Source of the DNA: Deltaproteobacteria bacterium
GTDB taxonomy: Bacteria > Desulfobacterota > Desulfuromonadia > Desulfuromonadales > BM103
Length of the DNA: 64,000 bases
Reading direction: 5' to 3'
Assembly (NCBI GenBank): GCA_024279915.1
Contig: JAJRRB010000031.1
Location: forward strand, 1 to 64,000
The notes beneath the pieces were generated by a model, which saw only the letters and a list, made by a program, of their open reading frames with translations, ran no database searches and had not been told where the DNA came from. Position numbers and translations under genes: made by a program. Shown here piece after piece: positions 41,994 through 63,420 of the stretch (positions are counted from its first letter, which is position 1; every line of letters begins with the position of its first letter).

Positions 41994-43367
41994 GTGCGTA
42001 ATACGAGAATATTAGTCGTTGACGATGAACACCTGATTCGCTGGTCGCTTGAATAATCGCTGAAAAAGCAGGGCTACGAGGTTACGACCGCCGCCAGTGG
42101 TGAGGATGCACTCAAGCAGGTGCAGGAAGATTCTCCTGAGTTGATGCTGCTCGACATTCAGCTGCCTGGTATGGATGGATTGGAGGTCCTGGAAAAGGTC
42201 AAAGAGATTGATAGCGAGATCATTGTCGTTATGGTGACCGCCCTCGGCGTACTGGAGACGGCTGTCAAAGCCATGCGCCTCGGTGCTCATGACTATATCA
42301 ACAAGCCGTTTAATCTTGACGAATTGTCGATTATTGTCAAAAAGGCACTTGAAACCCGCCAATTACGCAAGGAAGTTGCCCACCTGCGTTCTACCCAGGA
42401 GAGCAAGTTCGGTATTGATAATATCATCGGTAGTAGTCGCCAGATGCAGCAGGTCCTTGACATGGTGCGCAAGGTTGCCAAGAGTGATGCCAGCACGGTT
42501 CTGATCCAGGGTGAGAGCGGTACCGGCAAAGAGTTGATCGCCAGGGCCATTCATATGGAGAGTGCCCGTTGCGACAAACCTTTTATGGCAATCAACTGTG
42601 CCGCTGTTCCAGAGACTCTTCTCGAAAGCGAGCTGATGGGGCATGAGAAAGGTGCTTTCACCGATGCCAAGAGCCAGAAGCGAGGTATGTTTGAGGTTTC
42701 CGATGGTGGCACCCTGTTTCTCGATGAAATAGGCGACATGGAGATGGGCATGCAGGCCAAGTTGTTGCGTGTCCTCGAAGAGCGGACCTTTCGCCGGGTC
42801 GGTGGTACCAAGGAGATTCCCTTCGATGTCCGCATCGTCTCTGCGACAAATCAGGAGCTTCTCAAAAAGATAGAGGAAAAAACCTTCCGTAACGATCTTT
42901 ATTATCGTCTGCAAGTCATACCGATCTACCTGCCGGCACTGCGTGAGCGGCCTGAAGATATCATGCCACTGGTCGAGTTTTTTATCCGCCACTATAATAA
43001 AGAGTTCGGCAAAAGCGTTGCCGGTGTCTCCAAAATGGCCCGGAAATTTCTCGAAGAATACGAGTGGCCAGGCAATGTTCGTGAACTGCGTAATATTATT
43101 GAGCGGGCGATTATCCTTGAGAATGAAGAGACCCTTATGCTCGAACACCTCCCTCGAGAGTTGATTTCGAAGACCGGTGATATTGCATCGGGGCCGATGA
43201 ATCTACGCATTCCGCCAGAAGGCATTGACATCGAGGATGTTGAACGGGAACTGATTCGTCAGTCTCTGGAAATTGCTGAAGGTAATCAGTCGAAAGCGGC
43301 CAAAAAGCTCAACCTCGGTATCGATGCCTTTCGTTATCGGATGAAGAAATTCGGGTTTTTAGGATAA
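41994..43367 (+). pseudogene. NtrC-family sigma-54-dependent response regulator, interrupted by an in-frame TAA
   Basis: A GTG at 41994 opens a receiver domain (ILVVDDEHLIRWSLE). TAA at 42054-42056 follows codon 20, and the same frame resumes at once with SLKKQGYEV, MLLDIQLPGMDG with the phospho-acceptor Asp, and KPFNLDEL. Beyond are the AAA+ domain with GESGTGKE, GAFTDA in the sigma-54 contact loop (Gly to Asp at the usual GAFTGA), GGTLFLDEIGDM and the C-terminal Fis-type helix-turn-helix (NQSKAAKKLNLGIDAFRYR). One substitution from CAA or GAA would restore the gene. If the stop is genuine, only internal restarts could yield a regulator lacking its receiver start. Confidence 0.85.
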
Positions 43368-43693
43368 TCCCCCCCCCCTCAATCCCCCCTGTTTTACAGG
43401 GGGGAAGCGAGTACAACGAGCAGGGGGGTGCTCTTGATAGTTTGAGTTCAATGCGCTGAATAGCAACTAAACAACAACGGTGGGCAAGACCCACTCTACT
43501 ATACCCCAGATCCAGCCCCCAGTTCTCCTGTCCATCCCCCCTCAAAAGAACGAAATCAAACTTGGTATTAAGGTTGCAGTAACAAGCCACCGAACATAGC
43601 TTTAGCTGTGACAGATATTTGTCTTAAGGTATCTTAACTACTTAGTAAACATGGGTTTAATCCAGACCTCGTAGTACTGCAGGAGGCATAATA
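43368..43693. other. Intergenic stretch with a poly-C/poly-G hairpin
   Basis: Starts with C8 and AATCCCCCCT, then a perfect CCCCCCTGT/ACAGGGGGG hairpin at 43384-43404. Further CCCCCC and GGGGGG runs near 43421 and 43536 suggest a dispersed repeat. The remainder is a promoter-like AT-rich run ahead of the gene at 43694, with GCAGGAGGC as ribosome binding site. I see no gene here. Confidence 0.5.
43384..43404. terminator. CCCCCCTGT/ACAGGGGGG hairpin
   Basis: A perfect nine-base stem around TTT, 17 bases after the regulator stop; it could end transcription, although no T run follows. Confidence 0.45.
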
Positions 43694-46543
43694 ATGAAAC
43701 GACCTTACTCGATATCCCGCCTTATCACAGTGATATCACTGTTGCTTGGTGTTATATGGCTCAGTCCGGCTTTTGCCGTCGATGCGCCTACCTTTACCTC
43801 GCTGGGGCAAATTACATCTGGGGCATTACGCGTACCAGGTGCAATGGATCTGGATGTAGCTGGCAACCTGTATGTGGCAGATGCCCGCGGCGGTGCGGTG
43901 CACAAATTCAGCCCTTACGGTTCTTTACTTTCTAGTTTCAAGTTGAATGCCTCTGGACGCGGTATTGCGGTGCCTCCTGATGGTTCCCGCCTGTATGTTT
44001 CACGTGAGCAGTCGGTTCTGATCGTCAACGCGGTCAGCGGTGCCGAACTCGGTGCCCTTGTTGGTGGCTCAGGCTTTGGTACCGCCGGTGATATTGACCT
44101 TGACGCTTTCGGTAACGTCTTTGTTGCTGATGTTGGTAAAATGCTGATTAATGTCTACGATGCGTCTGGTCAGTACCGGAGCAGTTTTGGGGAGGTTGGT
44201 GAGGGTGCAGATCAGTTCATGCAGATTAGTGGTATGTCGATTAACTCGTCTGGTCAGGTTGTCGTTGCTGATGCGTCAACTTTAAATGGTAAAATTCATG
44301 TATTTTCTGTTGACAATGATTTGAGTGCGACTGAAATTGCAGCCTATCCCAAGCAAAGCGCGGCAAACTTTGGCTCTCCTCCTATGTCGTCGCCCAAGGG
44401 TATGGCTTTTGATGGGCAAGGCAGGGGCTATTTTCTTGACTTCAAGACAACCCAGGTTCGCGTCACCGGCACAGGTTTTGATTTCCTTGGCTCCTACACT
44501 GAGGCCGGTTATGGTGCTGGCCAATTGAATAATGTTATCAACGTGGTTTTTGATGACACCAACAATCGCCTGTTCGTCGGTTGTGACACCGGTCGTATCG
44601 TGATCCTGGGTGTTGACAGCGGACAGAATCCGGTGAAGATTAATCACGCTCCGACTGACCCGATCCAGCAGAGCCCGGTTGCGGGAAGTGAAGTTGCTTC
44701 AAGCACTCCTTCTCTGGTCATAAATAATTCCACGGACTCAGATGGCGACGCTTTAACCTACACTGTCGTTGTCACGCAGACTGATGAACTTTTATTTGAA
44801 GACGATGAGATTGTCTTCCAGGTAGAGGTGCCAGCAGAGGTGGGCGATATAACAACCGTTCTTGTCGATGTGGAGTTACTGGAAAACGCAGCTTTCTCAT
44901 GGACCATGCAGGCGACTGACGGGGAAAAATCCTCTGCCGTGAGTAGTGCAGACTTTGTTGTTAACGCTGTAGAAGATGCTCCTTCAACTCCGGAATTAAA
45001 CACGCCGGCAAATGGTGAATCAATCGACGGTGAGGGCATGCTCTCCTGGAGTGAGTCCACTGATCCTGATCCTAACGACAGCAATATCTCCTATCAAATC
45101 GAGATCGCTCTTGATGAAGAGTTCGCTCAGGTTGTTGCTGGGGAATTGCTCACGGGTGCTTCTCTGCCGCTTGGCTCTTTCGCCACTTACGGCGATTTTG
45201 TCGATGGCGATAATTACTTCTGGCGCGTTACTGCCCAGGATGAAACGCCTATGATGTCGGTACCGAGTGATGCTGGCCAGTTTGTTTATGACACGACTGC
45301 TCTAACCATCTCTGCCAATATGCCTGACGCTGTAGTCTCCTTCTCAGGTAATCATGCTTACGCTGGTCAGACGATGGGTACTGCCCCGCTTGAACTGCGT
45401 GATTTCACCCCTGGCACCCTGTCGGTGGTTGTCGAACGGGATGGTTTCGAGCCATTTGTTACTCAAGTTACATTGAACAATGGTGAGAATGTTGATCTTT
45501 ACGCTGAGCTCGTCCCTGCTATGGTCGTTATGAAACTGAGCCCCGGTAGAAAAAGCATAAACGGTCGTTCCGGTCTCTTTGTAAGTGGTGCAGCGGTTCC
45601 ATTCCTGGTCGATTTTGATAACGATCAGGATCTCGATATGCTGGTTGGTGACGGCTCCGGCCAGATTACCCTCTTTACTAATATGCAGTTGACCGGTCGT
45701 AATCGACTCAAATTCGACAATGGTGTTTCTTTGGGTCTCTCGGTTATGCCGAGTGCAATTCCTTTTGTTGCAGACTGGAACAATGATGGCCGCAAAGATC
45801 TGATCGTCGGCCAGGCTGACGGTTCTGTGAAGCTCTTTGTTAATGTTGGCCAGGAAGCAGCTCCTGTTTTTGCTACAGGAACTGATTTGCAGACGGTCAA
45901 TGGTGCCCTTGCTGCTGGCAGCAACGCTGCTCCGGCAGTGGTTGATTATGACGGTAATGGCGCTAAGGACTTGCTGGTCGGCAACGCCTCTGGTGAGGTG
46001 CTCGTCTTCCTGAATCAGGGTACTGATGCTGTTCCTCTCTTGTCTGCTCCGTTTACTGCTTTGCAGGTCGACGGTGCTGCAGTTCCTTTCCCGGTTGATT
46101 GGGATGCCGATGGCCAGAAAGAGTTGATTGTGACTGCTAATGGTGCTGTGACTATTTATTCTAAAATTGGTGGCGATTATCAGGTTGTTAACCAGTTCAA
46201 CAACAGGAAAGCTGGTTTCTCTGGCGCTTTCCCAATTGCTCTTGACGGTTCAGGCAAGCAGTTGCTGGTCGGTAAGAACGACGGACAATTGGTCTACCTC
46301 ACTGGCAACAGCAATCAGCCTGTAGCTAACTTCCATCTTGCATTGCAGGACAAGATCGATGAACTCGGTGGTCTCGTCGCTGACGAAGATCCAGAACTGC
46401 TGACAGATGTCTCGGTGCTTATCGTACTGATCGAATCTGGCGACTATGTGGCTGCAGAACTTGCCGCAAATGATATCGCTCTCCGTTTGCCAGCAGGTGC
46501 TGCACAAGTCTCCGCAATCGAGTTGGCTAATCTCTGCAACTAA
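43694..46543 (+). CDS. Large secreted NHL/Ig-like/PEGA/VCBS-type protein
   Basis: The 949-residue product has a signal peptide (cleavage near SPAFA). Next comes an NHL-type six-bladed beta-propeller (about 40-300; GAMDLDVAGNLYVADARGGAV, DIDLDAFGNVFVADVG, GMAFDGQGRGYFLD), two Ig/fibronectin-like domains (about 310-530), a PEGA domain (about 537-610; APLELRDFTPGTLSVVVERDG) and FG-GAP/VCBS-type calcium-binding repeats (about 630-880; DFDNDQDLDMLVGDGSGQI, DWNNDGRKDLIVGQADGSV). It has no heme sites. Such proteins accompany surface cytochromes in Geobacter relatives and may scaffold them. Only 47 bases separate it from the tetraheme cytochrome gene, so an operon with the two following genes is likely. 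Confidence 0.85.
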   Translation: MKRPYSISRLITVISLLLGVIWLSPAFAVDAPTFTSLGQITSGALRVPGAMDLDVAGNLYVADARGGAVHKFSPYGSLLSSFKLNASGRGIAVPPDGSRLYVSREQSVLIVNAVSGAELGALVGGSGFGTAGDIDLDAFGNVFVADVGKMLINVYDASGQYRSSFGEVGEGADQFMQISGMSINSSGQVVVADASTLNGKIHVFSVDNDLSATEIAAYPKQSAANFGSPPMSSPKGMAFDGQGRGYFLDFKTTQVRVTGTGFDFLGSYTEAGYGAGQLNNVINVVFDDTNNRLFVGCDTGRIVILGVDSGQNPVKINHAPTDPIQQSPVAGSEVASSTPSLVINNSTDSDGDALTYTVVVTQTDELLFEDDEIVFQVEVPAEVGDITTVLVDVELLENAAFSWTMQATDGEKSSAVSSADFVVNAVEDAPSTPELNTPANGESIDGEGMLSWSESTDPDPNDSNISYQIEIALDEEFAQVVAGELLTGASLPLGSFATYGDFVDGDNYFWRVTAQDETPMMSVPSDAGQFVYDTTALTISANMPDAVVSFSGNHAYAGQTMGTAPLELRDFTPGTLSVVVERDGFEPFVTQVTLNNGENVDLYAELVPAMVVMKLSPGRKSINGRSGLFVSGAAVPFLVDFDNDQDLDMLVGDGSGQITLFTNMQLTGRNRLKFDNGVSLGLSVMPSAIPFVADWNNDGRKDLIVGQADGSVKLFVNVGQEAAPVFATGTDLQTVNGALAAGSNAAPAVVDYDGNGAKDLLVGNASGEVLVFLNQGTDAVPLLSAPFTALQVDGAAVPFPVDWDADGQKELIVTANGAVTIYSKIGGDYQVVNQFNNRKAGFSGAFPIALDGSGKQLLVGKNDGQLVYLTGNSNQPVANFHLALQDKIDELGGLVADEDPELLTDVSVLIVLIESGDYVAAELAANDIALRLPAGAAQVSAIELANLCN

Positions 46544-46590: not shown

Positions 46591-47355
46591 ATGAAGCAGA
46601 TCGCGAAAAAAACTAGTATTCTGATTGTGTGCATGACCCTGCTGACTTCTCCCGTTTGGGGCAAGGGGATAGCTGTCGTCACAAATACAATCCACAACAT
46701 GTCGACGTCTCAACCGGCTATATATGGCAACACGTACAGGTCTTCAAACGTCGATCAGGTTTGTGTTTTCTGTCATACTCCGCATGGTGGTTCTCTCGAC
46801 GGTCCGCTCTGGAACCATAGTGCTCCAGTCAATAACTTTACGCATTACAATAGTGTGACACTCTCTGGCATTGTAGGCGAGAATCGCCCTGTTCGAAACG
46901 AATCCCTGATTTGTATGTCTTGCCACGACGGTAGTATCGCGGTCAATACGCTGCACAATAATCCGAACGAAATCGGCTCGGATCCAGTCTATCTGGCTGG
47001 TCTTAATCCGAACGTTCCCATTATTGGAATGGCTGGCGGTGTTCCCGCCGCGAAAATTGGTGCCGTTTTTGGTGATATCAGCGTCTCCGGTAATTTGACA
47101 GATGATCATCCAATATCATTCAGCTACAATGATGTCCTAACCGCGATTAATAACACCCCTAAAGAGTTCGAGATCAGAACGGTCGCTGCTGCCGAACTGA
47201 ATGGTGTTCGCTTTTACGGCCCAGAAAACTATGTTGAATGTACAAGCTGTCACGATCCTCACGTTGATTATGTAACACAACAGCCTGAATATGCACCGTT
47301 TCTGATTACGCCGAACACCGGTAGCGCCCTCTGTCTGGCGTGCCACGATAAATAG
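46591..47355 (+). CDS. Tetraheme c-type cytochrome
   Basis: The 254-residue product has a signal peptide (cleavage near SPVWG) and four CXXCH sites: CVFCH (near residue 57), CMSCH (near 108), CTSCH (near 214) and CLACH near the C-terminus. They lie in the doubled CXXCH arrangement with HTPH and HDPH ligand phrases. It is a periplasmic or outer-surface electron carrier. The gene is 62 bases before the giant cytochrome start. The order (propeller protein, small cytochrome, giant cytochrome) suggests stepwise electron transfer to the outside; this is inference. Confidence 0.85.
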   Translation: MKQIAKKTSILIVCMTLLTSPVWGKGIAVVTNTIHNMSTSQPAIYGNTYRSSNVDQVCVFCHTPHGGSLDGPLWNHSAPVNNFTHYNSVTLSGIVGENRPVRNESLICMSCHDGSIAVNTLHNNPNEIGSDPVYLAGLNPNVPIIGMAGGVPAAKIGAVFGDISVSGNLTDDHPISFSYNDVLTAINNTPKEFEIRTVAAAELNGVRFYGPENYVECTSCHDPHVDYVTQQPEYAPFLITPNTGSALCLACHDK

Positions 47356-47417
47356 AGATATCAACTTTAGAGATTACGATGACCAATTTTGAATTGATTG
47401 TACCCAGGAGTAGGCCC

Positions 47418-50400
47418 ATGAGAGCTAAAAATTACCTTGTCCTTCTGAGCTTGGCATTAATGTTGATAGTTCCGCAGCTGGTCGTTGCAGGACCTTATGA
47501 CCCAGTGCATGATTTTGACTGTCAGGATTGTCATAAACAAGGTGGGACGATCAATGAGTTGGGTGGAGGTAATGTCTGCCTGAACTGTCACGGTGGTACG
47601 GCTATGAGCTTTGCCCCCTTAAATCCTGCCAGGGGTGCGGTTCCACCATCAGGTGGAACATTTGTCGATGGCGACGCCAGTAATCAGTACGGCAATAACC
47701 TTGCTCACACCTCTCCTACATTCGAGCAAACTTCTCACAACTGGGCTGCTCCTTCGGTAAACCCTGCTGCTGGTGCTGTTGAGCCAAACGCGGCTGGTTT
47801 TTCTAGCCGTTGGAGAACTACTGCTGGTAAGGTTGCTTGTTCACGTTGCCACAATCCGCATGGTTTGCTTGAATCCAACCCTGGCTTGTTGCTTCTTTCT
47901 GCTAACTACATTGATCCGATGACGCCCAATGACATGTGTCTGGCCTGCCATGACGATTTTAAGGTGCAGACCTCTGATGGCACCCTAACTAACCACGGTA
48001 TACTGAGTCACCCGATGGTTGCTGATTACGCCACTGCGACCGTGGGCAGAAACGCCGGTAAATACAAGACTGCAGATGCCATCAATACGGCAAATGTGAG
48101 TGGCACCGGTATCCAATTGGTCGATGGCGGCGTTACTTGCCTCAGTTGCCACGGTCTCCATTTTGTCGACTCCGATGCACAAACGGCCGACGGTGTAGCC
48201 GCCACTGGTACTGGCGACGGCCTGTTGCTGCGCGGCGACGGTATGAATTTCGTTAATGACCCTACTCGCGGCAACTCATTCTGTAATACCTGTCATAATT
48301 ATGTTGGCATGGGCATGCACGGCAGCACCGCCGCAGCAATCGGTTGCATGGGCTGTCATGGCGGCCACAACTACGACTCGAAGTTCCAGCCGGGTAACAA
48401 CGGTGATACTTCCTATTTCATGCTGCCCAATAGCTATACCTCAGTGCCGGATGATCTTCTTCCTGATGTCGCAGCCGTTTCAGCTAAGCGCACGGATTTC
48501 ATGGGCGGCACGCTGCCAGGCGTTCTGGACGGCCTCTGTGAAACCTGTCATGGTGATTTTGAAGGCAATTTTGAGCTTTTAGCAGAAGACACTGAATATA
48601 ATCATCTTGCCGCAGGTCTTGGAGAATGTGACAGTTGTCATTTAAGCCACGGTGATGGAGCTTATTCCAAGCCGTCAGGGTGTGACTCCTGCCATGCGTC
48701 GCCTCCGCGTGACGCGACAGAAGGTAGTGCCGCTGCGACAGGTACAACAGGTTCTGCTTGGGATGATGTCGGCACATTCTTTCAGTATAGTGTCACCTCT
48801 GCCCTAACTAATGGTGGTATTACCCCTATAGATGAGACAAATTCTGGCCATGCCAAGCATGCCTATCCGGCTGATGCTGGTAATTATGCTTTTGCCTGTG
48901 ATGAGTGCCACAAGGGTAACAACCATAATGGCACAGAAGTATTGGTACCATCTTTTCAGGATGTGTTTAAAATTGATACAGGTCTGATCGCCACTATTGG
49001 CTCTGTGACTGCACCCCAGGCGGGCTTTACGCCAACATATGCCGGTGGAACGAATGATTGTTCCAGCCTCTACTGCCACAGCGATGGCGTCACTGCTCGT
49101 GCTGGTGGCGCAACTGCCAACCTGACTGTGCCGAACTGGGACAAGGGTAGTGCCCTTCCAACGACAGACTGTACTTCTTGCCATATTGCCAGCACCACAG
49201 GTACTGCCTCGATGCATACGATTCACATTGGCCTGTCCGACCTTGGCGTCACTTGCGGCAGTTGCCACAATCTGACCTCTCTTGATGGATTGAACCTTGA
49301 GGCGACAGCTACCGGTAGCGGCGGAATTCACGTTGATGGTACTGTTGATCTCGATTTTGATGCCGCTAATCCTAACTCAACTCCACCGATTCCTTCTGGT
49401 TATGCTCCTGTCTCAGGTACCTGCGGTCTATACTGTCACAGCGACGGCACGACTTACGTTGAGCAGCCCGACTGGGACGATGCCAACACCGGTAACTGCG
49501 GCGATTGTCACCGTGCAACAGCTTTAGACGATAATGGCGCGATTAATACCGGCGCTCATACCAAGCATGTTGAGGACCTGGGCTTTGCCTGTGATGTATG
49601 TCATACCCATAAAGGTGATGACTTTGGTGGCGCTCTTGCTCCTGACCACATCAACGGCAACCTTGATTTAAAGAACGGCGATGATACCTGTGCAGAATGC
49701 CATGGCGCTAAGCCACCGAGCCTTGGTGCGCCTTTTGGTGTTGGCGCAGACCTTTATCCCACCTGGGAATCTCCCAGCACGACAGTGACCTGCGAAACCT
49801 GCCACTCTGGCCTGCGTTCAGTTATCAACGCTGCGACTGCACCGCTTGTTGCTGAAGACGCATACGATAACGGTCATGGCAAGGTTGGCGTTGCTTGTAC
49901 TGATTGTCATGATGCAGCTCTGGATCCAGACCACCTCGATGGTGCTGCAACCGATCGTCTCGATACGTCCCTGCCAGCTTACGCAGCAGGGAATGATGTT
50001 GCCTTCTGTACTGATTGTCATGGGGCAACAACCAATAATCACAGCGATGCCGATGGCACGGTCTGTAAGACCTGCCACAACCAGCACGGTGAAGACAATG
50101 GCTTCGATGCCATGATCATGTCAACGGTCGATGGCAAAACTGTCACAGGCTTCGGCACACAAGGTGCTCGTGCCAGTTATGCCAATGCCGCTAATACCGG
50201 TATCTGCCAGACTTGTCACACCCCGGCGACTGGTATCCAATACTTCAACACAGCAACGAATGATCAGACTCATAATGCGGGGCTGGACTGTGATACCTGT
50301 CACTCTCACGATTCAACTCCGAAGGCCTTTGCCGGTGCTGGAAACGCCTGCGATGCTTGTCACGGCTTCCCGCCAGCAACTGCGGCCCATGCCAAGCATG

Positions 50401-53400
50401 CTCCGGTTTCTGATGCGCTGGCCAGTCCTGTTGACTTTGTGACTTACCCTGCGCTTGATCGCAGCGCCTGTGCCGGTTGTCACACCGGTGCCGACCTTTA
50501 CACATACAGCTACTCCGATGACCAGACGTCAGGAACACCAGGCCAGATCAATCATAACGCCGGTGATGCGACCCAGGTTGCAACTCTGGGTACCTCGGTT
50601 GGTTACAATAATGCTGATGGTAGCTGCGCAATCGCCTGTCACCGGGCCGATAACACCCGTGCCGACTGGGCCGTTGCCGCTCTTGCGTGTGATTCCTGTC
50701 ACCGTGAACCGCCTAGAAATGGTGGCGGCGATAATTCCGCTCATGAAGATCACATTTTGGCCGGGTTGACCTGCCTCACTTGCCACGGTGTCAACCCATC
50801 AGATACTGTGCACATCGACGCCAAGACTGGCGCCGATGAGTGGACCAAGGTTTCGAACATGACTGATCAGACCATCGATGCTGCGGCGATAACCGACGCG
50901 AGCTGGAATGGTACGAATAAGACTTGTGACAATACGGCGTGGCATAACCCGTCGGACGATGCACATATCGCCGACTGGGATGACAGTGTCTCCAGTTGTA
51001 AGCTTTGTCACGGCTCAGACGTTGCTTCAGGCGACGCTATGACCAGCTTGAGTCACGATCGCCATGTAGATAACGCTGCGGTTATCGGGGATAACGCCGT
51101 CTGTACTGATTGTCATGCTGCTGCAGGCAGTACCGCACATCGCGACGGCACCCTGCAGGTCCTTGCTGGCCTTAACTACAGTGGTGAAGTTGGTATCCCC
51201 ACTTCCGGTGTTGGTACCTGTAACACCAACACCTGTCATACTAATGACGGAACCCCGAGGATTACTCCGAACTGGGGTGATGATGCTAATGATGACTGCG
51301 TTACTTGCCATCGCAGCGGTGCTGATATAACCACTGCTGGTCCGATTCCATCTCGCGGCGATCATACTGAACACTGGATTAGTGGTCGTTTTACTAATGG
51401 CCTTGAATGTGCAAGTTGTCATGTCAACACTGTTAATCCTGGTACTCTGACTATCATCCCGTCAGCTTCAGGTGGCCTGCATATGGATGGTAGCTCTATT
51501 GATGCTATACCCGCAGGCGCCGCTGCCAAGTACAGTACTGTTGATGTAGCGTTCACTTACAATGACGCACCAAGCCCATCGACTTGTGCAACCACCAGTT
51601 GCCATGGTACCGCAATTACTCGAGTGTGGAGCCCGCCAAGCGGTTGTGTTGACTGTCACGGAAACCTGAGTGATAAGGGTCCAGTACATACTGCTCACAT
51701 TGATATTTCAACCAGCATCCAGAATGATCGTAGTGAATGTGTGGTGTGTCATGGCTCACAGGTTAACAGTTACGGACTTTCTGGTGGCGGTGACCCGGCG
51801 CACGATAATAAAAGCACTGATTTTGCTGCCGGTATCTCTAATACCACTTGTACCAATGCCTGTCATAGCAGCGATGGTACCGACGGTTTCTGGACTGATC
51901 CAAATGGCCTCAGCTGTGATGCATGTCACGCAGAACCGCCTGCCGATCAGCGCCACACCAAGCACGTTACCGACAGTGGCATGGCATGTACCGATTACCA
52001 CGGCACTGTTGATGCAGCTGGAACCCATCCGCTGACCCACAACCACAGTAAAGATGAAATCGGCGGACCGGGCATCACCGATGATGAAGCCCTGATTACT
52101 CGAGGTAAAGATTATATCAATAATGGTGGACAGGACATCGCAGTCGATGATGCTGCCTGGAATGGAGCTGGTCCGAATACCTTTGTCAACAGCTCAGTCA
52201 CCAACGACGCTGGTAATAACTGCTCCAACACCATGTGCCACGATCCCTCCGATAACGGCACCGTTGCCGACTGGGATGTTGCCAACGCCAACGGCTGTGC
52301 TTTTTGTCACGGTGATGATGGCACGGTTGCCATTTTGACCAGTGGCAGTCATGAGCGTCACCTCGATGCCACAGCCAAGTTCGGTTTGACCATCGATTGT
52401 AATCGTTGCCACCCGACGAATGCAGTCAATGATCATTTTATGACATCCGGTCCGACGGCTGTTAATGGCCAGGTACAGTTCGGTGGCAGCGTTATTTCTG
52501 CTGCTGGTAGTGGCAACAGCCAATACTCCGGTGACATTGACCTGCCAAATAGTGCTGTTGCGGTTGCTCTGCAATTCGGTACATGCGGTACGAACGCATG
52601 TCATAATAACGGTACCGGTAGCGGCGCACCTGTAGCGACCTACGAATGGAACGCTGCGGTGGCCACCGACTGTCAGACCTGCCATGTCGATCCGCCAATA
52701 ACCGGTCGTCATGCTACCCATCTTGGCGCTAGCGTCTCTTATGGCCCATACGCTGGTACCGCTTCGACCAACTGCGGCGATTGCCATGATGCCAATAACG
52801 ACCTGACCATGACCGGCAAGGCGGATCATATTGATGGCTCCATTAACTTCAGCGACGGCAATAACATTGCGACCGGTGGCATTCAGGCCGATGGTGCGAT
52901 TGCTGCCTGTAACACCTGTCACGGTGGTCAGGCTGCTGCCGATCTCGCCAAGGCACAGTGGGACACCTCTAACCGCCTGAGTTGCGAATCTTGTCATGGT
53001 GACAACAGTGCTGCCAACAGCCAGGCTGCCGGTGGCGGTGTTGATGCACCGCTGGATGCCGGTACTCCTTACACGGACAATGGTCACGGCATGACGGCAA
53101 CACCGGCCAGTGCCATTGGTGGCAGCAAGCCTGTCCTCCAGGCCTGTAACGACTGCCACGACAACACTGACGCTCATATCAGTGGCACCCTGGGCGATGA
53201 CACCCGCCTGGATCCGATGGGTGGTATTACCTACTCTGTTGATCCCAACGGGTGGTGTAACGATTGCCATACCGGACTCGGTAGCTCAGAGGTCCATTAC
53301 GATAATACCCACACAACCAATGGTGCCAGTGATGATGCGGTGACTTGCGTCACCTGTCACGATCAGCATGGCCAGAACGGTGGCCAGGACGCCATGATCG

Positions 53401-55760
53401 CATCAACCATCCAAACCCGTTCGGTAACCGGCTTTACCGATCGCACCGCACGCGGCAGCTACTCGAATCCGGCTCCGTTTGATGGTGTCTGTCAGGTTTG
53501 TCACGATCAGAACGCTCCGGACAGTATTTTGTACTTCAACCGTGCAACTGAAACTCCTGGTCACCAGAGTGGTAACTGCCTGACCTGTCACAAACATACC
53601 GATACGCCAATCTTTAAGCCGAGCGGCTGTTCCAGCTGTCATGGCGATGTAGTCTCTGGCGCTTACTGGCCTGATGGCAGCGATGCCGATCCTGATGACA
53701 ACCCTGGCCGTCACCTCAAGCACATGGAAGAGCTGGCCGCAGAAGTCTATGGCCAGAATATTACGACCCTGCTCACAGATACCGGTGGCACTTCGGATCT
53801 CAAACAGACCACGCTCTGTGCTTACTGTCATACTGGCCCGGGCGTCACCAACCACAACAACGCCACGGTCAACGTAAACAGCATGTTCAGTCTCTGGGAT
53901 GGTGCGACACCTGACGTCGGCATCTATACTGCGGCAACCAATAGCGGCAGTTGTGCTACTGTCGATTGCCACAACAACCAGACCACGCCAAGTGCAGGTT
54001 ATGGCTGGAATGGCGCGGCTGTTACCGGTACCGCTCGTTGCCTCAATTGCCACGAAACCGGTGCCGCAAACGATCTGGCTAACAACAATATCCACCCGAA
54101 CAGTGCCCTGCACACCGTTACCAATATCGGTACGGTTCAGCAGCACAATGAGAACCTGCCGGCTACCGGCTGTCTCGAGTGCCACGATACGGCTCTGTCG
54201 TCCACACATATCAACGGTGCTGCCGTTGCCGATGGCGGCAATACCAACAACGCCACTGAGCGCTTCGTGGTTGCCGATGTCAACTATGTCGAGGGTGTTC
54301 TCAATCAGACCACCTGTTCGCCGCAGGCCGGTCTCGCCGGCTGTCATAGCGATGAAGGCGCCTGGGCACGTCAGTGGTCAAACTTCGCCGATTCTACCAG
54401 TACAGCTATCGGCACAACCCGTTGCGATGTCTGTCATGGCCAGCTCAACGACTGGCGCGGCGGCCTCACTGTTACTCACGACACGGCTTTGATCAATGCC
54501 GATAACCACGCCGGTTGTGAGCAGTGCCACGTCGCACCGACCGCACCGTATGCGTTCGGTACGAATCACGAGAACGATCTGGTCGAAGTCAACAATAACG
54601 CCGCGATGCATTATATCGAGACAGCAGGTAGCTGTGACGTGGCGATCTGTCACGGTGCTGGCGCAGCTGCGACCAGGACCATCGGTGATTCGACGATCTT
54701 TGATGCAAACCTTCTGGGTGGTGCGGGTGTATCGTGTAACCTCTGTCACGATAGCTCCGGTGGTTTCGCCGGTAATCGCTATGCCCACGCGGTCCACGTC
54801 ACTTCAGCCGCAACCGGCCCGGCAGATTACATTGATCCCTCGATCAAGTCCGTTGCCGGCAACTACAGCTTCGGTTGTGGTAACTGCCACCTGAACGACG
54901 CAACCGCCTTCAATGATCATCATAACGATGGAGTGGTTGATCTTTCACTCAACAACAGCAACGGTGGTGTCCTCAAGGGCCAGAACAATATCGCTAACGA
55001 TACTGGCGGCTACATCCAGGCGGATACCTCTCCGGGTAACGGCGGTTCGGTCACCTGTTCGGCGGCCTACTGTCACTCCGATAGTGAAGGCACCTTCGCC
55101 ACCACACCGAACTGGTCGGCAATTTTGCCGAGCTTCACCGGTGACCGTTGTGCCCAGTGTCACACCAACAGCCCGTCGACCTCGTCGCACAGTGCCCACG
55201 TTGTTGCCATCCATTATCAGGATGTTTACACCGGCACCACCGACCTGGTTAACGACGGCACGAACAATAACGCCCACGGTGACCCGGCGAAAGCCACCAC
55301 CATCGACTGTGCCCTCTGTCACTTCACGACAACGATCAATACCAAGAACGACGAGAATGCGGTCTGTATTACCTGTCACGGCTCATACGCTACGCCGCAG
55401 GGTACACCGGACATCGTCGACAAGGCGATGCATGTCAACGGTCAGCCTGATGTCGCCTTCCGCCCGGTTCCAATTCGTTCGCCGGCTCAGCTGCGCGACA
55501 ACATTGCCGATGCACCTGAGGTTGGCAGCAACTGGAGCCGATTCGATGCAGATAGTGATGCAGCTCCGACTCCGGATCTTGATGATTACAAGAATGCCAA
55601 TGGCCTGTCTCACGATATCACTCCGGCCAATCTCGATACGGCGACCATGTACAACAGTGGTTCCAAGAACTGCACCGTGGCCTGTCACAACAACAACGTG
55701 ATTACCTGGGGGCAGGCCAATGTCTCCTGTAACAACTGCCACACTGAGTTACCGAAGTAA
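47418..55760 (+). CDS. Giant multiheme c-type cytochrome, about 2,780 residues
   Basis: A signal peptide (MRAKNYLVLLSLALML..., cleavage near VVAGP) leads into an extremely repetitive mature protein. By eye I count 56 CXXCH sites, eight CX4CH, four CX3CH and one CX8CH (near 54318-54350), about 69 possible hemes. Modules alternate CX4CH and CXXCH, the pattern known as the Geobacter CXXXXCH...CXXCH domain, with repeated phrases such as NNGHG, TCVTCHDQHG and DNGxDAMI. Two further sites are degenerate: CDNTAWH at about 50929-50949 (the second Cys replaced by Trp) and CTDYH at about 51985-52000 (Cys to Tyr). The start at 47418 is set by AGGAG seven bases upstream. There is no clear membrane anchor at the end. 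It is most likely exported and used in extracellular electron transfer. Confidence 0.88.
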   Translation: MRAKNYLVLLSLALMLIVPQLVVAGPYDPVHDFDCQDCHKQGGTINELGGGNVCLNCHGGTAMSFAPLNPARGAVPPSGGTFVDGDASNQYGNNLAHTSPTFEQTSHNWAAPSVNPAAGAVEPNAAGFSSRWRTTAGKVACSRCHNPHGLLESNPGLLLLSANYIDPMTPNDMCLACHDDFKVQTSDGTLTNHGILSHPMVADYATATVGRNAGKYKTADAINTANVSGTGIQLVDGGVTCLSCHGLHFVDSDAQTADGVAATGTGDGLLLRGDGMNFVNDPTRGNSFCNTCHNYVGMGMHGSTAAAIGCMGCHGGHNYDSKFQPGNNGDTSYFMLPNSYTSVPDDLLPDVAAVSAKRTDFMGGTLPGVLDGLCETCHGDFEGNFELLAEDTEYNHLAAGLGECDSCHLSHGDGAYSKPSGCDSCHASPPRDATEGSAAATGTTGSAWDDVGTFFQYSVTSALTNGGITPIDETNSGHAKHAYPADAGNYAFACDECHKGNNHNGTEVLVPSFQDVFKIDTGLIATIGSVTAPQAGFTPTYAGGTNDCSSLYCHSDGVTARAGGATANLTVPNWDKGSALPTTDCTSCHIASTTGTASMHTIHIGLSDLGVTCGSCHNLTSLDGLNLEATATGSGGIHVDGTVDLDFDAANPNSTPPIPSGYAPVSGTCGLYCHSDGTTYVEQPDWDDANTGNCGDCHRATALDDNGAINTGAHTKHVEDLGFACDVCHTHKGDDFGGALAPDHINGNLDLKNGDDTCAECHGAKPPSLGAPFGVGADLYPTWESPSTTVTCETCHSGLRSVINAATAPLVAEDAYDNGHGKVGVACTDCHDAALDPDHLDGAATDRLDTSLPAYAAGNDVAFCTDCHGATTNNHSDADGTVCKTCHNQHGEDNGFDAMIMSTVDGKTVTGFGTQGARASYANAANTGICQTCHTPATGIQYFNTATNDQTHNAGLDCDTCHSHDSTPKAFAGAGNACDACHGFPPATAAHAKHAPVSDALASPVDFVTYPALDRSACAGCHTGADLYTYSYSDDQTSGTPGQINHNAGDATQVATLGTSVGYNNADGSCAIACHRADNTRADWAVAALACDSCHREPPRNGGGDNSAHEDHILAGLTCLTCHGVNPSDTVHIDAKTGADEWTKVSNMTDQTIDAAAITDASWNGTNKTCDNTAWHNPSDDAHIADWDDSVSSCKLCHGSDVASGDAMTSLSHDRHVDNAAVIGDNAVCTDCHAAAGSTAHRDGTLQVLAGLNYSGEVGIPTSGVGTCNTNTCHTNDGTPRITPNWGDDANDDCVTCHRSGADITTAGPIPSRGDHTEHWISGRFTNGLECASCHVNTVNPGTLTIIPSASGGLHMDGSSIDAIPAGAAAKYSTVDVAFTYNDAPSPSTCATTSCHGTAITRVWSPPSGCVDCHGNLSDKGPVHTAHIDISTSIQNDRSECVVCHGSQVNSYGLSGGGDPAHDNKSTDFAAGISNTTCTNACHSSDGTDGFWTDPNGLSCDACHAEPPADQRHTKHVTDSGMACTDYHGTVDAAGTHPLTHNHSKDEIGGPGITDDEALITRGKDYINNGGQDIAVDDAAWNGAGPNTFVNSSVTNDAGNNCSNTMCHDPSDNGTVADWDVANANGCAFCHGDDGTVAILTSGSHERHLDATAKFGLTIDCNRCHPTNAVNDHFMTSGPTAVNGQVQFGGSVISAAGSGNSQYSGDIDLPNSAVAVALQFGTCGTNACHNNGTGSGAPVATYEWNAAVATDCQTCHVDPPITGRHATHLGASVSYGPYAGTASTNCGDCHDANNDLTMTGKADHIDGSINFSDGNNIATGGIQADGAIAACNTCHGGQAAADLAKAQWDTSNRLSCESCHGDNSAANSQAAGGGVDAPLDAGTPYTDNGHGMTATPASAIGGSKPVLQACNDCHDNTDAHISGTLGDDTRLDPMGGITYSVDPNGWCNDCHTGLGSSEVHYDNTHTTNGASDDAVTCVTCHDQHGQNGGQDAMIASTIQTRSVTGFTDRTARGSYSNPAPFDGVCQVCHDQNAPDSILYFNRATETPGHQSGNCLTCHKHTDTPIFKPSGCSSCHGDVVSGAYWPDGSDADPDDNPGRHLKHMEELAAEVYGQNITTLLTDTGGTSDLKQTTLCAYCHTGPGVTNHNNATVNVNSMFSLWDGATPDVGIYTAATNSGSCATVDCHNNQTTPSAGYGWNGAAVTGTARCLNCHETGAANDLANNNIHPNSALHTVTNIGTVQQHNENLPATGCLECHDTALSSTHINGAAVADGGNTNNATERFVVADVNYVEGVLNQTTCSPQAGLAGCHSDEGAWARQWSNFADSTSTAIGTTRCDVCHGQLNDWRGGLTVTHDTALINADNHAGCEQCHVAPTAPYAFGTNHENDLVEVNNNAAMHYIETAGSCDVAICHGAGAAATRTIGDSTIFDANLLGGAGVSCNLCHDSSGGFAGNRYAHAVHVTSAATGPADYIDPSIKSVAGNYSFGCGNCHLNDATAFNDHHNDGVVDLSLNNSNGGVLKGQNNIANDTGGYIQADTSPGNGGSVTCSAAYCHSDSEGTFATTPNWSAILPSFTGDRCAQCHTNSPSTSSHSAHVVAIHYQDVYTGTTDLVNDGTNNNAHGDPAKATTIDCALCHFTTTINTKNDENAVCITCHGSYATPQGTPDIVDKAMHVNGQPDVAFRPVPIRSPAQLRDNIADAPEVGSNWSRFDADSDAAPTPDLDDYKNANGLSHDITPANLDTATMYNSGSKNCTVACHNNNVITWGQANVSCNNCHTELPK

Positions 55761-56005: not shown

Positions 56006-59000
56006 ATGAATACGTGGAGAGCGCACATGCTGACAGGAGTTGAGAAGATGACGAGAATGATGAGATTAAGTGGGACTTGTCGAACGGATGAAAGTGGTCC
56101 GGCTTGTCGGCGTGGTGAAACACGTGGCGCGTGGCGTGTGGCGCGGTTTGCGGTTGTCGCTGTGATGGCGATGGTGTTGGTGGCAGGTACTTACGGTAGT
56201 GTGCTTGCGGCAAACGTTAACGAGTCTTATTCCGATGACAATGTTTCCATTGAGTTAAATACGTCAGCATCATTTGATGGAACCATCACCGAGTCCTTCG
56301 CCACCAGCTCCAATATCAGTCTGAAGGTTGTTGATGCTGCTGGAAATGACGGTGCTAAATCTAATGATGTTAAAATCACGGATCTTTCTGGGAGTACGGT
56401 AGTCGATGGCGGCGGATGCTTCAGCAGCACTGATGATATTATCTGGACCTGTTCGCTGACCACGCCAAGCACCGCCGGGGTTTACATTGTTGAAATAAAA
56501 TTAGAGGATGATGGTGGCTACAACGATCAGGCGGTTAAGATTAACACCTTGATCTACGTTGGGACCGATACCGCTTCAGTAGTCAATTTCCACTACACCT
56601 ATAATGATGCCGCTCGCACAACGTTTGATGAGATCTTCGCTCCAGGCGATACGATTTACGGTGTGGTCAGGTTTACCGGTGGAGTACCCCATACGAATAA
56701 TTCAAAAATCGATTTACAGGATTTATATGGGAATAAGGGTACTTCATTGACTGCATTCACCATCAGTGGCAGTGAGCTCTACTATGCCTATACTCTGCCA
56801 TCAAATGTGGCCAATATGCAGAACGACTTTCCAGATTACAGCAGTCCCGACTACTTCAATATCATTCCGGATCTTAAAACTGATAAGGATGGGACAGATA
56901 CAACTGTTGCCAAAAAGTTCGGTAAAATTATCAAGATTCAGGCAACTGCTGAGGTCGGAGCTGTTGGCGATGTGTTGGTCGATGATGCTAGTGTACAAGT
57001 GACTTGTTCCCGAGTTGCTCCAACCGTAACCATCAGCACCGCCAACCAGACCATCATCACTGATGGTGGCAACGCTGTCTACAACTACACCGTTACCAAC
57101 AACGCTACGGGCGGCAGTTGTGGCAGCACCACCTTCAACCGAGGTGTGTCTGACGATAGTGGCGGCCTTTTTACCACGACCCGAACTCCGACCACGGTCA
57201 CTCTGGCGGAAGGTGCGACCAGTGGTACCTTGACGATGACGGTTACGGATACATCTGCTCCAGATGGGGGCAGTACGATCAGTACTCTGACAGCTTCTGA
57301 AGGTACTCACACCGATGGGACTGCAACCCGGACAACAGATATTAATATCCCCTGTTCTGATGTCGGCACAGTCTCTCTCGCCAATCTAGCGCTTCCGCAC
57401 CTTTTACCGGCACCGTCAGCGTCTCTGCGACCGGCGGCGGCGATGCTGTTGCTGCAAGCATTCGAGTTGATGATATTGATCCACCGACCCAGACCAGCCC
57501 CTGGAATTACACGCCACCGGTGTCCAGCGAGGGTTCTGTAACCTTCTACGCCACAGCAACTGGTCCGACTTGCGGCGTGTATACAGACTCGGCAACTTAC
57601 AACTACGACACCCTGGCCCCCTCGGTCACCTCGACTGTTCCGGCCAACTCTGCCACTGGTATTGCTAAAGACAGCAGCGTGACCATCAACTTCAGTGAAA
57701 ACATCGACTGTGCTACTGTCACTACCTCAAGTGTAACCATGATCCCAGCCCCAGGTGGCTGGTCTCGGACCAGCTGTTCCGGCAGCACGGCGGTCTTTGC
57801 ACCGACCGGGCAGGTGAATTCGCCTCCGTATACCGTCACTGTTGATGCCGCTGATCTGGCTGGCAACAATATGGCCGGTAGCTACATTTTCACATACACC
57901 ACCGATTGTACCGATTCGATCGCCTCGTCGATCAGCTTCGATGGTGGCCCTTACACACCGTCAGGTGATTTCGCTGGTGCTGATATGGTGAATCCGGTTG
58001 ATTTGACGAATCTGCAATATCAAATTACCGAGACCACGCCTTCGACGGCGATTACTACAGGTCATGGTGAAACTAGTGACTGTGATAGCACTACTTATAC
58101 TACCGGTGATATTGTTTATGTTGATTATAATAATCCGGCGGTAGGTAATGGTACCTTGGACACAATAAAGGTAACTGCTGGAAGCAACGGTACTTTAGTG
58201 TTTTTCACTGCCTCGTGTACGGCACTCGCAAATCCTACTTGCACGGTCGTCGACTTTACTGGTGAAGAAACGGTCGTGGCAGGACTGAATACAATACCAG
58301 TTAACCTCACTATTAACGATGGTAACTATCTTGGCTTTGCCGCGCAGGGGTCTCGCCCCTCAGTTTGTAGAGACAGCACTGTCCCTTATGGCAATGCCGC
58401 TCAATTTGATGTGATTGGCACAGTCCCAAGCGTTGGCCTGGGCTATGTTTTAGGAGCAAGTGGCGAAGCTAACGCACTGCAACTTTATGGATCTGGTGCC
58501 ACATCAGGTGGTGGAGAGGTGATTCGTTATGCTTGGAATAGCGACTTGCAGCTCGCAATGAGCGGCGAAGCACCTGCCACCGCAGCGTTGGATGATCCTA
58601 TCACAGCAGGAAACACCTATAAGATCTACGCCCGCGGCGACGATGCTGAGTGTGGTGTCAATACCTACTACGTGGGTGGCGGTGCTTCTCCTGGTACCGG
58701 TCAACCATTCACCTGGACCTCATGTGTCGATAGCCCGGCCTCGACCATTACTGTAGCCGGTGGCCCGGTTGGCGGTTCTGTCGACGTCAACAGCCTGTTT
58801 ACCAGTACGCAAAACGTTGCAACATTCTTCTACCGTATCGACGGTGGTGCCCTGACCCCGGTCGGTACCGCGTGGGATAGTACATCGGTTGTTGGTAGTG
58901 ATATCGCTCCGGTCAATGTGACTGTTTATGTTGAGGGTACTGACCCGGATTGTGGTGGTCAATTGATCAGTCACAGCGCTACGATCAGCGTTGATAACAC

Positions 59001-62000
59001 CTGTACCGACCCCGATCCGTCGACCATCACCGTCCCGGCCAGTCAATCGGTTAACGGCAACAGTGTTGATCTGACCACCCTGTTCAACACCACTGGCGAT
59101 GTCGCCGGATTTACCTATCGGATGAACGGCGGTGCCGTGACCACGCCATGGGACAGCACCGGATTCGGTGCAGGTGGTCCGGAAGTAGTGAGCTTTGAAG
59201 TCACCGGCACCGATCCTGATTGCGGCGGCTCGACTATCGGCCCGATCACGGAGAATATTACTGTTAACAACGCCAACCCGACCGGTATCATCACCATCAC
59301 CGCCACCGCCGGCGATAGCAAAATTGATCTATCGGCCAGCTACAGCGGCGATGTCAATACCAGCAACAGCCTGCTGATCGAGTGGGATGCTTGTGGTGGC
59401 GTCTGCGACGGGACCACCTTCCCGGGCGGCAACGACATTACCCTGGCCAATGCGGCCAGTCCGTATTTGCAAACTATCGGCTCGCTGACCAACATGCTGA
59501 AGTACCAGGTCCGGGTCAGCTTCGTTGATGGTGACGGTGTCATCGGGTCCAACCCTGTGACCTTCATCGACCTGGTGCCGACCAACCCGATGCTGCACAA
59601 CAGCTCTACGACCAGCAGTAGTTATCAGGGCGGCAGTTGGGGACTGCCAGGGACCACATATGGCGAATTCACCTGCGAAACCTGCCACGTTGATTCTTTG
59701 GCCGGCGAAGTGACTGACAACGTCAAGCGGATGCGTGAAACCATTACCATCACTGGTGGGCCGTCGGCGACCGGCGCAGCCTTGTTCCTCGATGCCCGCG
59801 ACAGCAACTACTGGGGCGACAACAGCGATTCGCACACCGCGTCTGACCGGGTCTGCGAAGTCTGCCACAGTGAGACCACGATTCATCGTTACGACACCAC
59901 CTTGCAGCCCGGTTTCGGTACCCATAATAACGACGGCAAGGCGTGTATCGTCTGTCATGCACATGACACAGGGTTCGCGGCCGCCGGCTGCGATTCCTGC
60001 CACGGTTATGCACCGGAAAGTAATGTCTCCGGACCTCCGGGCCTAGCCAATGCACCGGCCACCGGCAGTGTTACCGAAGGCGCACATGTTCGCCACATCA
60101 ATGACGTGACCGGCCCGCAGTACACCTGTGATGCCTGTCATGGCGTCGGCAGCGGCGGCGGCGGCGGGGCGGCTCATATGAGCGGTGCCATCGCCATCGA
60201 TTTCAACGCTTTCGGTTCAACCGACGGCACCTACGCCGGCCAAACAGCTGTCGATCTCCTGGCCGGTTACACCGGTGCCAGTACTACGACATCTGATAAC
60301 AGCCTGACCTGTGCAGCTGTTTATTGTCACGGTGGCACCATCAGCGGCACCCCTCCGACCTGGACCGGTTCTGTCCAGTGCGGTAGCTGTCATAATGCTG
60401 ATCCGGCCGCTGGCGGCTGGCTCGGTAACCACAGTGTCCACCTCAACACTGTCGGCGTCACCTGTACCGATTGCCACGGTGGCGGTTATACTGAAGATGA
60501 CGGCACCGGTACTGCCGGAGCTACGCCTGCCGATCACCTCGGCGGTACGGTTACCATCAATATGAGTGCAGTCGATGGCTCGGCCAGCTACAGTAAAGGC
60601 GCCAGTGTCATAACCCAGGGTCTGCCAGGTGATGCTGCTTACGGCACCTGTTCGGTTTCCTGTCACGGTTCCGGTAACCCGACCTGGGGCGGCAATCTCG
60701 GCGTATATCCGGCCAAGTGCGTGGCCTGTCATAATGACGGCGGCGGCTCCACCCTGCGTGATGCCGTGCCGGGTGCAACCAGTACGGTTCACCAGACCCA
60801 TAGCGATAACACTTCATATGTCGCTAATAACTGCGATAATTGCCACGGCAACAACGCCAGCCTCGGCACCCACGCCAACCACACCAACGACGGTGTCCTC
60901 GGCGACGGTGACGCGACTTTCGCCAATGACCTGACCGGCTACAGTACAACCAATAAGGACTGTACCAACAGTTGTCATATTGCCACCACCAACAACCTCT
61001 GGGTGGCTGCTCCGCCGGCTCTGGCCTGTACCGATTGTCATACCACCAGTTACATTGCCGATGATAAAGGCGCGATGCCGACTACCGGTCTGCACGGTGC
61101 CACGGCCAGTACGCAGATACACAATCAGACCATTGATACAAATGGCTGCAGCGAGTGCCATGAAACGGAAGCCGGCACTCATATTGACGGCACCTTCGTC
61201 GCTGATGCTTCTAACAATAACGATCGTTTCGTCAATCGAAACAGCGGAGGAGTTGTTTTGAACTGGTCGGATGGCGCAGCGAATACCGGTACTTGTAACG
61301 GTAGCCTCACCGGTTGCCACAGCGACACCGGTGTCTGGGAACGACTCTGGTCGACAGCCGCCAACTCGGATCTCGCAACTGCGAGTGTCGGCGATGTTCG
61401 CTGTGATGTCTGTCACGGTCAGTGGACCAAGTGGCGCCCTGGCACCACCCACTCGTTAGCGAATTTGGACTCCGTCGATGATGCTGCTAACACCCGTGGC
61501 GCTGGCCATGATGGTACACCGGATTGTACAATATGCCACGACTTTGGTGGTGTCCCTAACAAGCACAACACTGCCACCCATAGAATTACTATGAACAGCG
61601 ACGCTGGCGGCACCCCGACCTTATATGCTCGAACCGGCAACACTCACGGCACCGATGGCGCTGGTTGCGGTGATTGCCATGCCGGTGAAGATGTGATCGC
61701 CACCGATAATGGCCATAACTTCCCGGTTTCCATCTTCCTGAGCGAGACCGTCGATGGTGTAACAGTGCCGATGCCGGCCTGTGGTAGCTGCCACGGTGAA
61801 ACTGGTGTCGATGCTTCGGCACCACAAGTCAAGCCGGGAACTTCTGCCCACCTTCTGGTCCCTGGGCAAGCTGGTGATCAACCCTGTGAATCCTGCCACG
61901 CAGGTCACGCCAGTGGCACGACCGGTGCTAACGATGTTGAAATAAGTACCGCTCCTGCGACTTTCAATAACAAATACGCAACCCATAGCAATGCTATCCA

Positions 62001-63283: not shown

Positions 63284-63340
63284 ATGAAAAAATATCAAAA
63301 ACCGCAAGTGGTCGGTAGCAGCAACGTCCATCCTTGCTAA
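63284..63340 (+). CDS. 18-residue peptide gene (possible RiPP precursor)
   Basis: The ATG is preceded by AAGGAG eight bases upstream and encodes MKKYQKPQVVGSSNVHPC, then TAA. A rho-independent terminator begins 26 bases later. The YXXPXV-G pattern near the start resembles the recognition sequence bound by PqqD-like (RRE) domains in RiPP leader peptides, and the only Cys is the last residue. No modification enzyme lies in the window. It may instead be a small regulatory or heme-locus peptide. Without conservation data this is a tentative call; the ribosome binding site and terminator are the main support. Confidence 0.5.
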   Translation: MKKYQKPQVVGSSNVHPC

Positions 63341-63366
63341 TCAATCAAAATAACCAGCAAACCCAA

Positions 63367-63394
63367 GGGCCGAGAGAAATCTCGGTCCTTTTTT
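63367..63394 (+). terminator. Terminator after the 18-residue peptide gene
   Basis: GGGCCGAG and CTCGGTCC pair (one G-T wobble) around AGAAAT, followed by six T. Confidence 0.88.
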
Positions 63395-63420
63395 CATCCG
63401 GGACACTTCAAAGGGACACC

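Follow-up and report, generated by a model that had tools for sequence, protein, structure and literature searches.

The window analysed here, a 64,000-nucleotide (nt) stretch of contig JAJRRB010000031.1 from a Deltaproteobacteria bacterium of the order Desulfuromonadales (assembly GCA_024279915.1), encodes a giant multiheme cytochrome within a cluster ordered as probable heme-sensor kinase, sigma-54-dependent regulator, sigma-54-type motif, NHL/FG-GAP protein, OmcE-like cytochrome, giant cytochrome and second large cytochrome (Table 1), and most of this order was found again in related genera. The giant gene is a single reading frame with no internal stop. The mechanical open reading frame call spans 47379-55760, but ATG 47418, the start taken in an earlier sequence-only reading of this DNA, looks better because AGGAG lies just 5' of it, its Met is invariant in an alignment of five sequences, and a signal-peptide-like stretch comes next. 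A scripted count gave 56 CX2CH, 4 CX3CH, 8 CX4CH and 1 CX8CH sites, 69 in all, identical to the count that the sequence-only reading had made by eye; its signal peptide is likewise present as a signal-peptide-like N-terminus, and inspection by eye found no lipobox or membrane anchor. Chance can be excluded as the origin of the heme motifs because 138 of the 140 Cys in the protein sit in the 69 sites. The remaining two Cys mark degenerate sites, CX4-Trp-His at residue 1188 and CX2-Tyr-His at residue 1540 (P0001 numbering, from ATG 47379, 13 residues before ATG 47418).

This heme pattern proved to be fixed across a family of orthologues. Seven full-length orthologues from four other genera (genomes G025, G045, G056 with locus L072, G067, G113 with L071, G125 with L073, and G051 with L032) are each 43.6-46.3% identical to the window protein, and the alignment of all eight contains 71 heme columns, of which 71 are filled in the seven others and 69 in the window copy. 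The two incomplete sites of the window copy retain the first Cys and the His, with TGG (Trp) and TAC (Tyr) codons in place of the second Cys, and all 71 proximal His are still present. Invariance was concentrated in the Cys columns (138 of 142, versus 386 of the 2103 other ungapped columns). In addition, 68 non-motif His columns are conserved in all eight sequences and 72 in at least seven, which amounts to about one candidate distal ligand per heme. The spacing within the motif differs among the orthologues at five heme sites. The G045 and G056 proteins are 98.7% identical to each other and therefore represent nearly one sample. The G051 orthologue (L032:7323-15647) contains one in-frame TAG at codon 1714, with its 71 sites distributed on the two sides, and was aligned with X at that position.

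These orthologues also bear on the concern, raised by the sequence-only reading itself, that the frame might be a concatenation of assembled repeats. The protein is repetitive and the draft genome comprises 99 contigs, which would fit an assembly artefact; however, the DNA repeats measure only 20-48 nt with copies about 61-85% identical (20 of 33 repeat families listed), so that the frame does not consist of identical repeats stacked by the assembly, and the same 71 columns recur in seven orthologues, one of them (G067) in a single-contig genome. The concern was not supported, and we regard such an artefact as very improbable indeed.

Genome searches returned matches at an E-value of 0.001 or better in 43 of 118 genomes (the own genome included, together with relatives), and at 1e-20 in 42 of 136 genomes of the order and 101 of 277 genomes of the class; mostly two candidates were scored per genome, so negatives are soft. 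A search for related loci with the single protein as query gave none, and the alignment as query gave 37 loci.

The architecture of the giant protein is modular. The repeated module described by the sequence-only reading was recovered as 13 three-heme units, which were placed by hand, with borders of our choice, and aligned at 22-36% identity to the first unit. Each unit follows the order His-rich element, CXXCH, CX3/4/8CH, CXXCH, an order that resembles cytochrome c7; HxxH opens 11 of the 13 units and is absent from two, most units have one extra His between the first and second heme sites, and 13 of the 14 long motifs (the degenerate CX4 site included) take the third place in the unit. BLASTP of the protein against itself found no internal pairs. 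Two inserted stretches, with similar spacing, span heme sites 18-26 and 48-56. The N-terminal domain could be aligned with 29 other sequences from named loci, and its profile matched OmcS best among Protein Data Bank (PDB) entries (E 6.5e-10 for the whole sequence; i-Evalue 0.0069 for the best single stretch), a resemblance that is suggestive only. Across the class, shorter proteins among the matches listed often align with just the N-terminal third or just the C-terminal 345 residues, and from these match ranges the family looks like two end modules joined by a variable middle.

Along the giant protein, the Pfam and NCBIfam scans gave matches to cytochrome families only, among them the CxxxxCH/CxxCH domain TIGR01904 (148.3 bits versus a cut-off of 27, in 11 stretches), PF09698 (35.3 versus 21.7 bits) and Cytochrome_C7 PF14522 (186.1 bits versus a gathering score of 24.8, in five stretches). 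Membership in the OmcA/MtrC or DmsE decaheme families was rejected, as TIGR03508 scored 58.5 bits against a 192.2 cut-off and TIGR03507 was not listed. The protein was also rejected as a filament subunit of the OmcS, OmcE or OmcZ kind, which are short and have 4-8 hemes, given its 2,780 residues, 69 sites and lack of CX14CH. A PDB search with the whole giant protein gave no match. The repeat profile drew 42 PDB sequences, the best at E 3.3e-4 and with weak single stretches; these included other cytochromes of several kinds and only one c7. Because these matches are weak and mixed, no solved fold is claimed for the repeat units.

Strings of cytochrome c7 domains of the GSU1996 type are among the closest known systems. 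The window itself holds a 410-residue cytochrome at 20628-21860 with 15 CXXCH in five three-heme repeats and a match to TIGR04257 ('nanowire_3heme') of 396.6 bits in five stretches. Such strings are likewise three-heme beads with HxxH before the first CXXCH; unlike them, the giant protein has many more units, with CX3/4CH as the second heme site, and only 26 columns align by profile (probability 87%).

The genes surrounding the giant cytochrome suggest how it may be regulated and with which proteins it may act; neither the OmcE-like gene directly before it nor the sigma-54 regulatory set figures in what the sequence-only reading says of the giant protein. The sensor domain of the upstream histidine kinase holds one CXXCH, making the protein a probable c-heme sensor judging by its sequence; the kinase is 84% identical to its counterpart in locus L077 and the regulator, whose homology starts near 41985, 92.6% identical to that of the same locus. 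The tetraheme protein encoded directly before the giant cytochrome belongs by sequence to the OmcE family: its match to PDB entry 7TFS, which is OmcE according to a figure legend in a 2026 review (PMC12954529), is near full length and reaches E 2.6e-42 by profile, and it has four CXXCH together with non-motif H35, H65, H173 and H224, invariant in 12 of 12 sequences. It is this upstream protein, and not the giant itself, that is the OmcE relative. A second strong match was to 9YUQ, a 16-chain entry for a 'putative multiheme cytochrome c'. In OmcS and OmcE filaments, a His from the next subunit is described as serving as ligand to a heme (PMC9473688). Two more OmcE-like relatives occur in the own genome, at G000:C87:5169-5564 (L127; 38% identical) and G000:C45:2516-3157 (L128; 34%). 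Beyond the giant gene, the second large cytochrome forms one frame in L071 (2330 residues) and L077 (2205 residues); just 3' of the cluster lies an IS200-like (Y1_Tnp) transposase-type protein (63334-63801).

Table 1. Features of the giant cytochrome locus, with positions in the window
Feature	Position	Strand	Remarks
Sensor histidine kinase	40502-41992	+	PF21563 (Mcp40H-20 type) 33.7 bits vs 27; HAMP, HisKA, HATPase_c
In-frame TAA in regulator receiver domain	42054-42056	+	Gln in the eight loci with printed regulator start
Sigma-54-dependent response regulator	42120-43367	+	Pfam Response_reg, Sigma54_activat, HTH_8
Sigma-54-type motif	43563-43578	+	TGGTATTAAGGTTGCA; starts 131 nt before the NHL gene
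NHL/FG-GAP beta-propeller protein with PEGA domain	43694-46543	+	949 residues; Pfam
OmcE-like tetraheme cytochrome	46591-47355	+	254 residues; phmmer match to PDB 7TFS, E 9.1e-27, residues 13-254
Giant cytochrome	47418-55760	+	2,780 residues; 69 heme sites (71 in orthologues); TIGR01904 match
Signal-peptide-like N-terminus, giant cytochrome	47418-47489	+	Judged by eye; no Cys ahead of first heme site
N-terminal domain, heme sites 1-11	47520-48911	+	Weak profile similarity to OmcS 6EF8
Stretch of thirteen three-heme repeat units	48843-55169	+	Units aligned after hand placement
Inserted block A, heme sites 18-25	49689-50363	+	Aligns with block B over 263 columns at 37% identity (E 3.9e-31)
Degenerate heme site CX4-Trp-His	50925-50945	+	Cys in seven full-length orthologues and the G071 fragment
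Degenerate heme site CX2-Tyr-His	51987-52001	+	Cys in seven full-length orthologues and the G071 fragment
Inserted block B, heme sites 48-55	52908-53642	+	Spacing like that of block A
CX8CH site	54315-54347	+	CX3CH in all seven orthologues
C-terminal module, residues 2447-2791	54717-55751	+	345 residues; other cytochromes of the class also match it by itself (among matches listed)
Second large cytochrome with Ig-like domain	56006-63222	+	20 CX2CH, 24 sites in total; frames 56006-57541 and 57520-63222
Frame change in second large cytochrome gene	57361-57541	+	One open frame in L071 and L077

Our survey of gene order covered 30 large-cytochrome loci, checked by tblastn. NHL and OmcE-like genes lie upstream in 22 of them, comprising all eight of the 71-site family and 14 of the 22 others; the OmcE-like gene is absent from the remaining eight loci (L041, L043, L046, L049, L051, L052, L081 and L083). 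Kinase and regulator fell within the stretch for six of the eight family members, the stretch having ended first for G025 and G125; additional stretches (L150 for G025, L149 for G125) show a regulator just before the motif, so that a sigma-54 regulator precedes the motif in all eight when that of G125, at the end of another contig, is counted. A relative of the second cytochrome is present beyond the giant gene in all eight, partly as a cut fragment. No description of this cluster was found in the literature searched, which was seen mostly as listings or passages; it may be contained in a large published survey of the gene neighbourhoods of multiheme proteins (PMC11475568).

Alignment of the DNA before the NHL gene revealed, besides the ribosome-binding site, one shared element, TGGYAYYANNNTTGCA, a sigma-54-type pair present in seven of the nine upstream sequences compared, the other two being cut short. 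With conserved GG/GC elements and an activator gene close by, this is a predicted sigma-54 promoter. The exact pattern, written from seven loci, occurs in 24 of 125 fetched loci, corresponding to 16 distinct places besides the window, and at each of the 16 it lies upstream and on the strand of a large cytochrome (at least 35 sites, or cut where the stretch ends). Ten of these places had not been used for the pattern and are a fair test of it, with G056 among them nearly identical to G045. The same 1.95 Mb read backwards gave one match. The own 3.83-Mb genome has two motif sites versus one control match, the second site showing no cytochrome in the 3 kb seen. Sixteen relatives, picked because they carry such loci, gave 20 matches in 15 genomes versus six in the backwards control; by position, 16 of the 20 are upstream of such a locus and three elsewhere, and one further match (G125:C161) stands next to a regulator gene where a contig ends and would fit such a locus.

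The exact motif was absent from the stretches of G062, L044, L059, L061 and L063 despite their NHL and OmcE-like genes, and that of L044 also holds a regulator. In L036 and L038 the mechanical NHL start lies beyond or close to the motif, and there the gene probably begins further 3'. A generic consensus for sigma-54 sites, allowed two mismatches (59 matches versus 42.6 +/- 7.0; 1 of 100 shuffles as high), was too loose and was rejected. The species-conserved motif with one mismatch gave three window matches versus 0.8 expected, with 6 of 100 shuffles as high; because this count is weak, the case for the motif rests on the exact matches and their places. A terminator scan stayed at shuffle level (11 versus 11.0) and sigma-70-like sites numbered 22 versus 13.9 +/- 3.6; neither result was used.

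The sequence-only reading had called the giant gene intact, which is true of the single frame without a stop and less so of the heme sites, two of the 71 having lost the second Cys; in addition, the regulator next to it is interrupted by an in-frame stop, and the cytochrome gene downstream changes frame. The eight loci with Gln at the position of the stop are L032, L034, L036, L038, L050, L071, L072 and L077, where L038 and L071 belong to one genome. The stop, the split downstream gene and the two lost Cys might indicate that the locus is decaying in this strain and that the giant cytochrome is perhaps not expressed, a state compatible with the conduit reading proposed below for the family. 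However, 8.3 kb remain open, and 69 of the 71 sites and all 71 proximal His are kept at only 44-46% identity; we hold decay to be unlikely. A methionine-synthase-like gene elsewhere in the window, with S-methyl_trans, pterin-binding and B12-binding domains, is also split, between the overlapping frames 36649-38076 and 38055-39053, and the pterin-binding domain itself is cut; because of this pair, sequence errors are an alternative cause of the lesions, and these together with the two lost heme Cys may be either real decay or errors.

The number of hemes in the giant cytochrome is not exceptional. The sequence-only reading had stated that few bacterial cytochromes approach this number, a view that was not supported: 69 and 86 motifs have been published for others and counts of 71 (in seven genomes), 77, 78 and 93 were obtained here. 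Giant multiheme cytochromes of Desulfuromonadales are already known as a kind, to which the window protein adds a member. DSOUD_0664 of Desulfuromonas soudanensis WTL was published in 2016 as having 69 Cxx(x)CH motifs and a predicted extracellular location (PMC4914508). In genome G033, the protein at L050:5604-13985 has 58 CX2CH and 11 CX3CH, likewise 69, and 77 once CX4CH and longer motifs are counted, and on this motif count, made without a locus tag, it is probably DSOUD_0664. Its locus has the order regulator, motif, NHL, OmcE-like and giant as in the window; the giant differs in being 37% identical over the best segment and in falling outside the 71-column set. A 2025 report on Desulfuromonas acetexigens describes high-molecular-weight cytochromes with up to 86 motifs, expressed as transcript and protein during growth on electrodes or iron oxide (PMC12133095); by this published description, rather than by sequence, they are proteins of the same kind from a related bacterium.

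Among the loci read here, the G035 relative has at least 78 heme sites in a frame open at the contig end, and an uncultured Geobacter bin encodes, in a single frame of 4,354 residues (L081:9761-22822), 93 heme sites (71 CX2CH, 8 CX3CH, 7 CX4CH and 7 longer). This number exceeds the 86 given as the highest in electroactive bacteria in PMC12133095, although counting rules may differ. A 1,059-residue Candidatus Lindowbacteria cytochrome (L106:9815-12991) has 42 CX2CH, about one site per 25 residues. Among archaea, a 113-heme protein is reported for Ca. Methanoperedens manganireducens (PMC7082337, PMC9012536), and it and the S-layer multiheme cytochromes of anaerobic methanotrophic (ANME) archaea likewise have very many hemes per chain. 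The ANME S-layer type was rejected for the window protein: those proteins are archaeal and carry S-layer domains, whereas the Pfam scan of the giant listed five families and no S-layer domain among them.

We consider it fairly probable, although well short of certain, that the giant cytochrome conducts and stores electrons outside the cell or at its outer surface and is produced along with a filament cytochrome of the OmcE type. The protein would be secreted and its hemes, probably bis-histidine ligated, would be chained along a polypeptide built mainly of c7-like three-heme units, with the N-terminal domain and two duplicated inserted blocks. Each chain could store electrons at 69-71 one-electron sites and serve the respiration of insoluble acceptors or electrodes. 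It would be expressed jointly with the OmcE-type filament cytochrome, the beta-propeller protein and the second large cytochrome. A sigma-54 promoter controlled by the heme-containing sensor kinase and its regulator would drive this expression when the heme sensor reports a suitable redox state. The link to filaments is indicated by the OmcE-like gene, which lies directly upstream in all eight members of the 71-site family.

Several observations weigh against this interpretation. The wire-like form and the extracellular location, to which the sequence-only reading took the repeated module and signal peptide to point, are predictions; no match was found in 75 of the 118 genomes, with up to two candidates scored in each; and in this strain lesions affect both the regulator and the cytochrome gene downstream. 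No regulator was seen in L053, L039 and L059 though upstream DNA is present there. The repeat profile did not match solved cytochrome c7 significantly (3H33, E 0.29), and AlphaFold2 gave a predicted local distance difference test (pLDDT) of 54 for the N-terminal domain and 33 for the repeat stretch; as both are poor, the models are unusable for heme geometry. Foldseek of the N-terminal model against PDB and BFVD returned no match. Finally, an OmcE-like gene lies upstream in 15 of the 23 distinct relatives that hold at least 57 sites in one frame and is lacking there in eight, including the 93-site protein.

These eight giants without an OmcE-like neighbour would also be consistent with a periplasmic or surface capacitor, in which about 70 electrons are stored to buffer discharge when no acceptor is available and no path leads to a filament. 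The large heme number alone fits storage, as does the absence of a lipobox or anchor noted above, and storage capabilities of such proteins are mentioned for D. acetexigens in PMC12133095. However, the filament-type gene upstream throughout the 71-site family argues for a filament link, and the fixed order of sites is no less apt for a path than for storage; a pure capacitor strikes us as rather unlikely. The neighbouring genes suggest another surface role. NHL/FG-GAP, PEGA and Ig-like domains are common in surface proteins, and the neighbours carrying them might be adhesins of a system in which the many hemes of the giant protein contact oxide particles; but the giant protein itself matched cytochrome families only, leaving this explanation quite improbable.

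Within the conduit reading that we favor, a more specific arrangement can be proposed tentatively, and we would not hold it as the expected outcome: the giant cytochrome may be a dedicated partner of an OmcE-type nanowire, as its base, cap or side branch, and may connect the filament with either the cell surface or the acceptor. One regulon, run by the c-heme kinase and the sigma-54 activator, might then make both the filament subunit and a single-chain wire of about 71 hemes, whose heme number would stay constant because every site would be one step along a single continuous path.

The cluster bears on how filaments of cytochromes connect to the cell and to their acceptor, and on when they are produced. 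The finding is of specialist interest for its combination of a fixed 71-site pattern with a conserved cluster of OmcE-like gene, heme-sensor kinase and sigma-54 motif. The cluster combines a gene of the filament type with a chain whose heme number is fixed, and it has a heme sensor and a promoter motif of its own; it offers defined genes and a promoter for tests, and the record of Geothermobacter hydrogeniphilus HR-1, which holds a 71-site member (L072), provides a named strain in which they could be made. The fixed 71-column pattern would also strongly constrain models of a continuous heme path.

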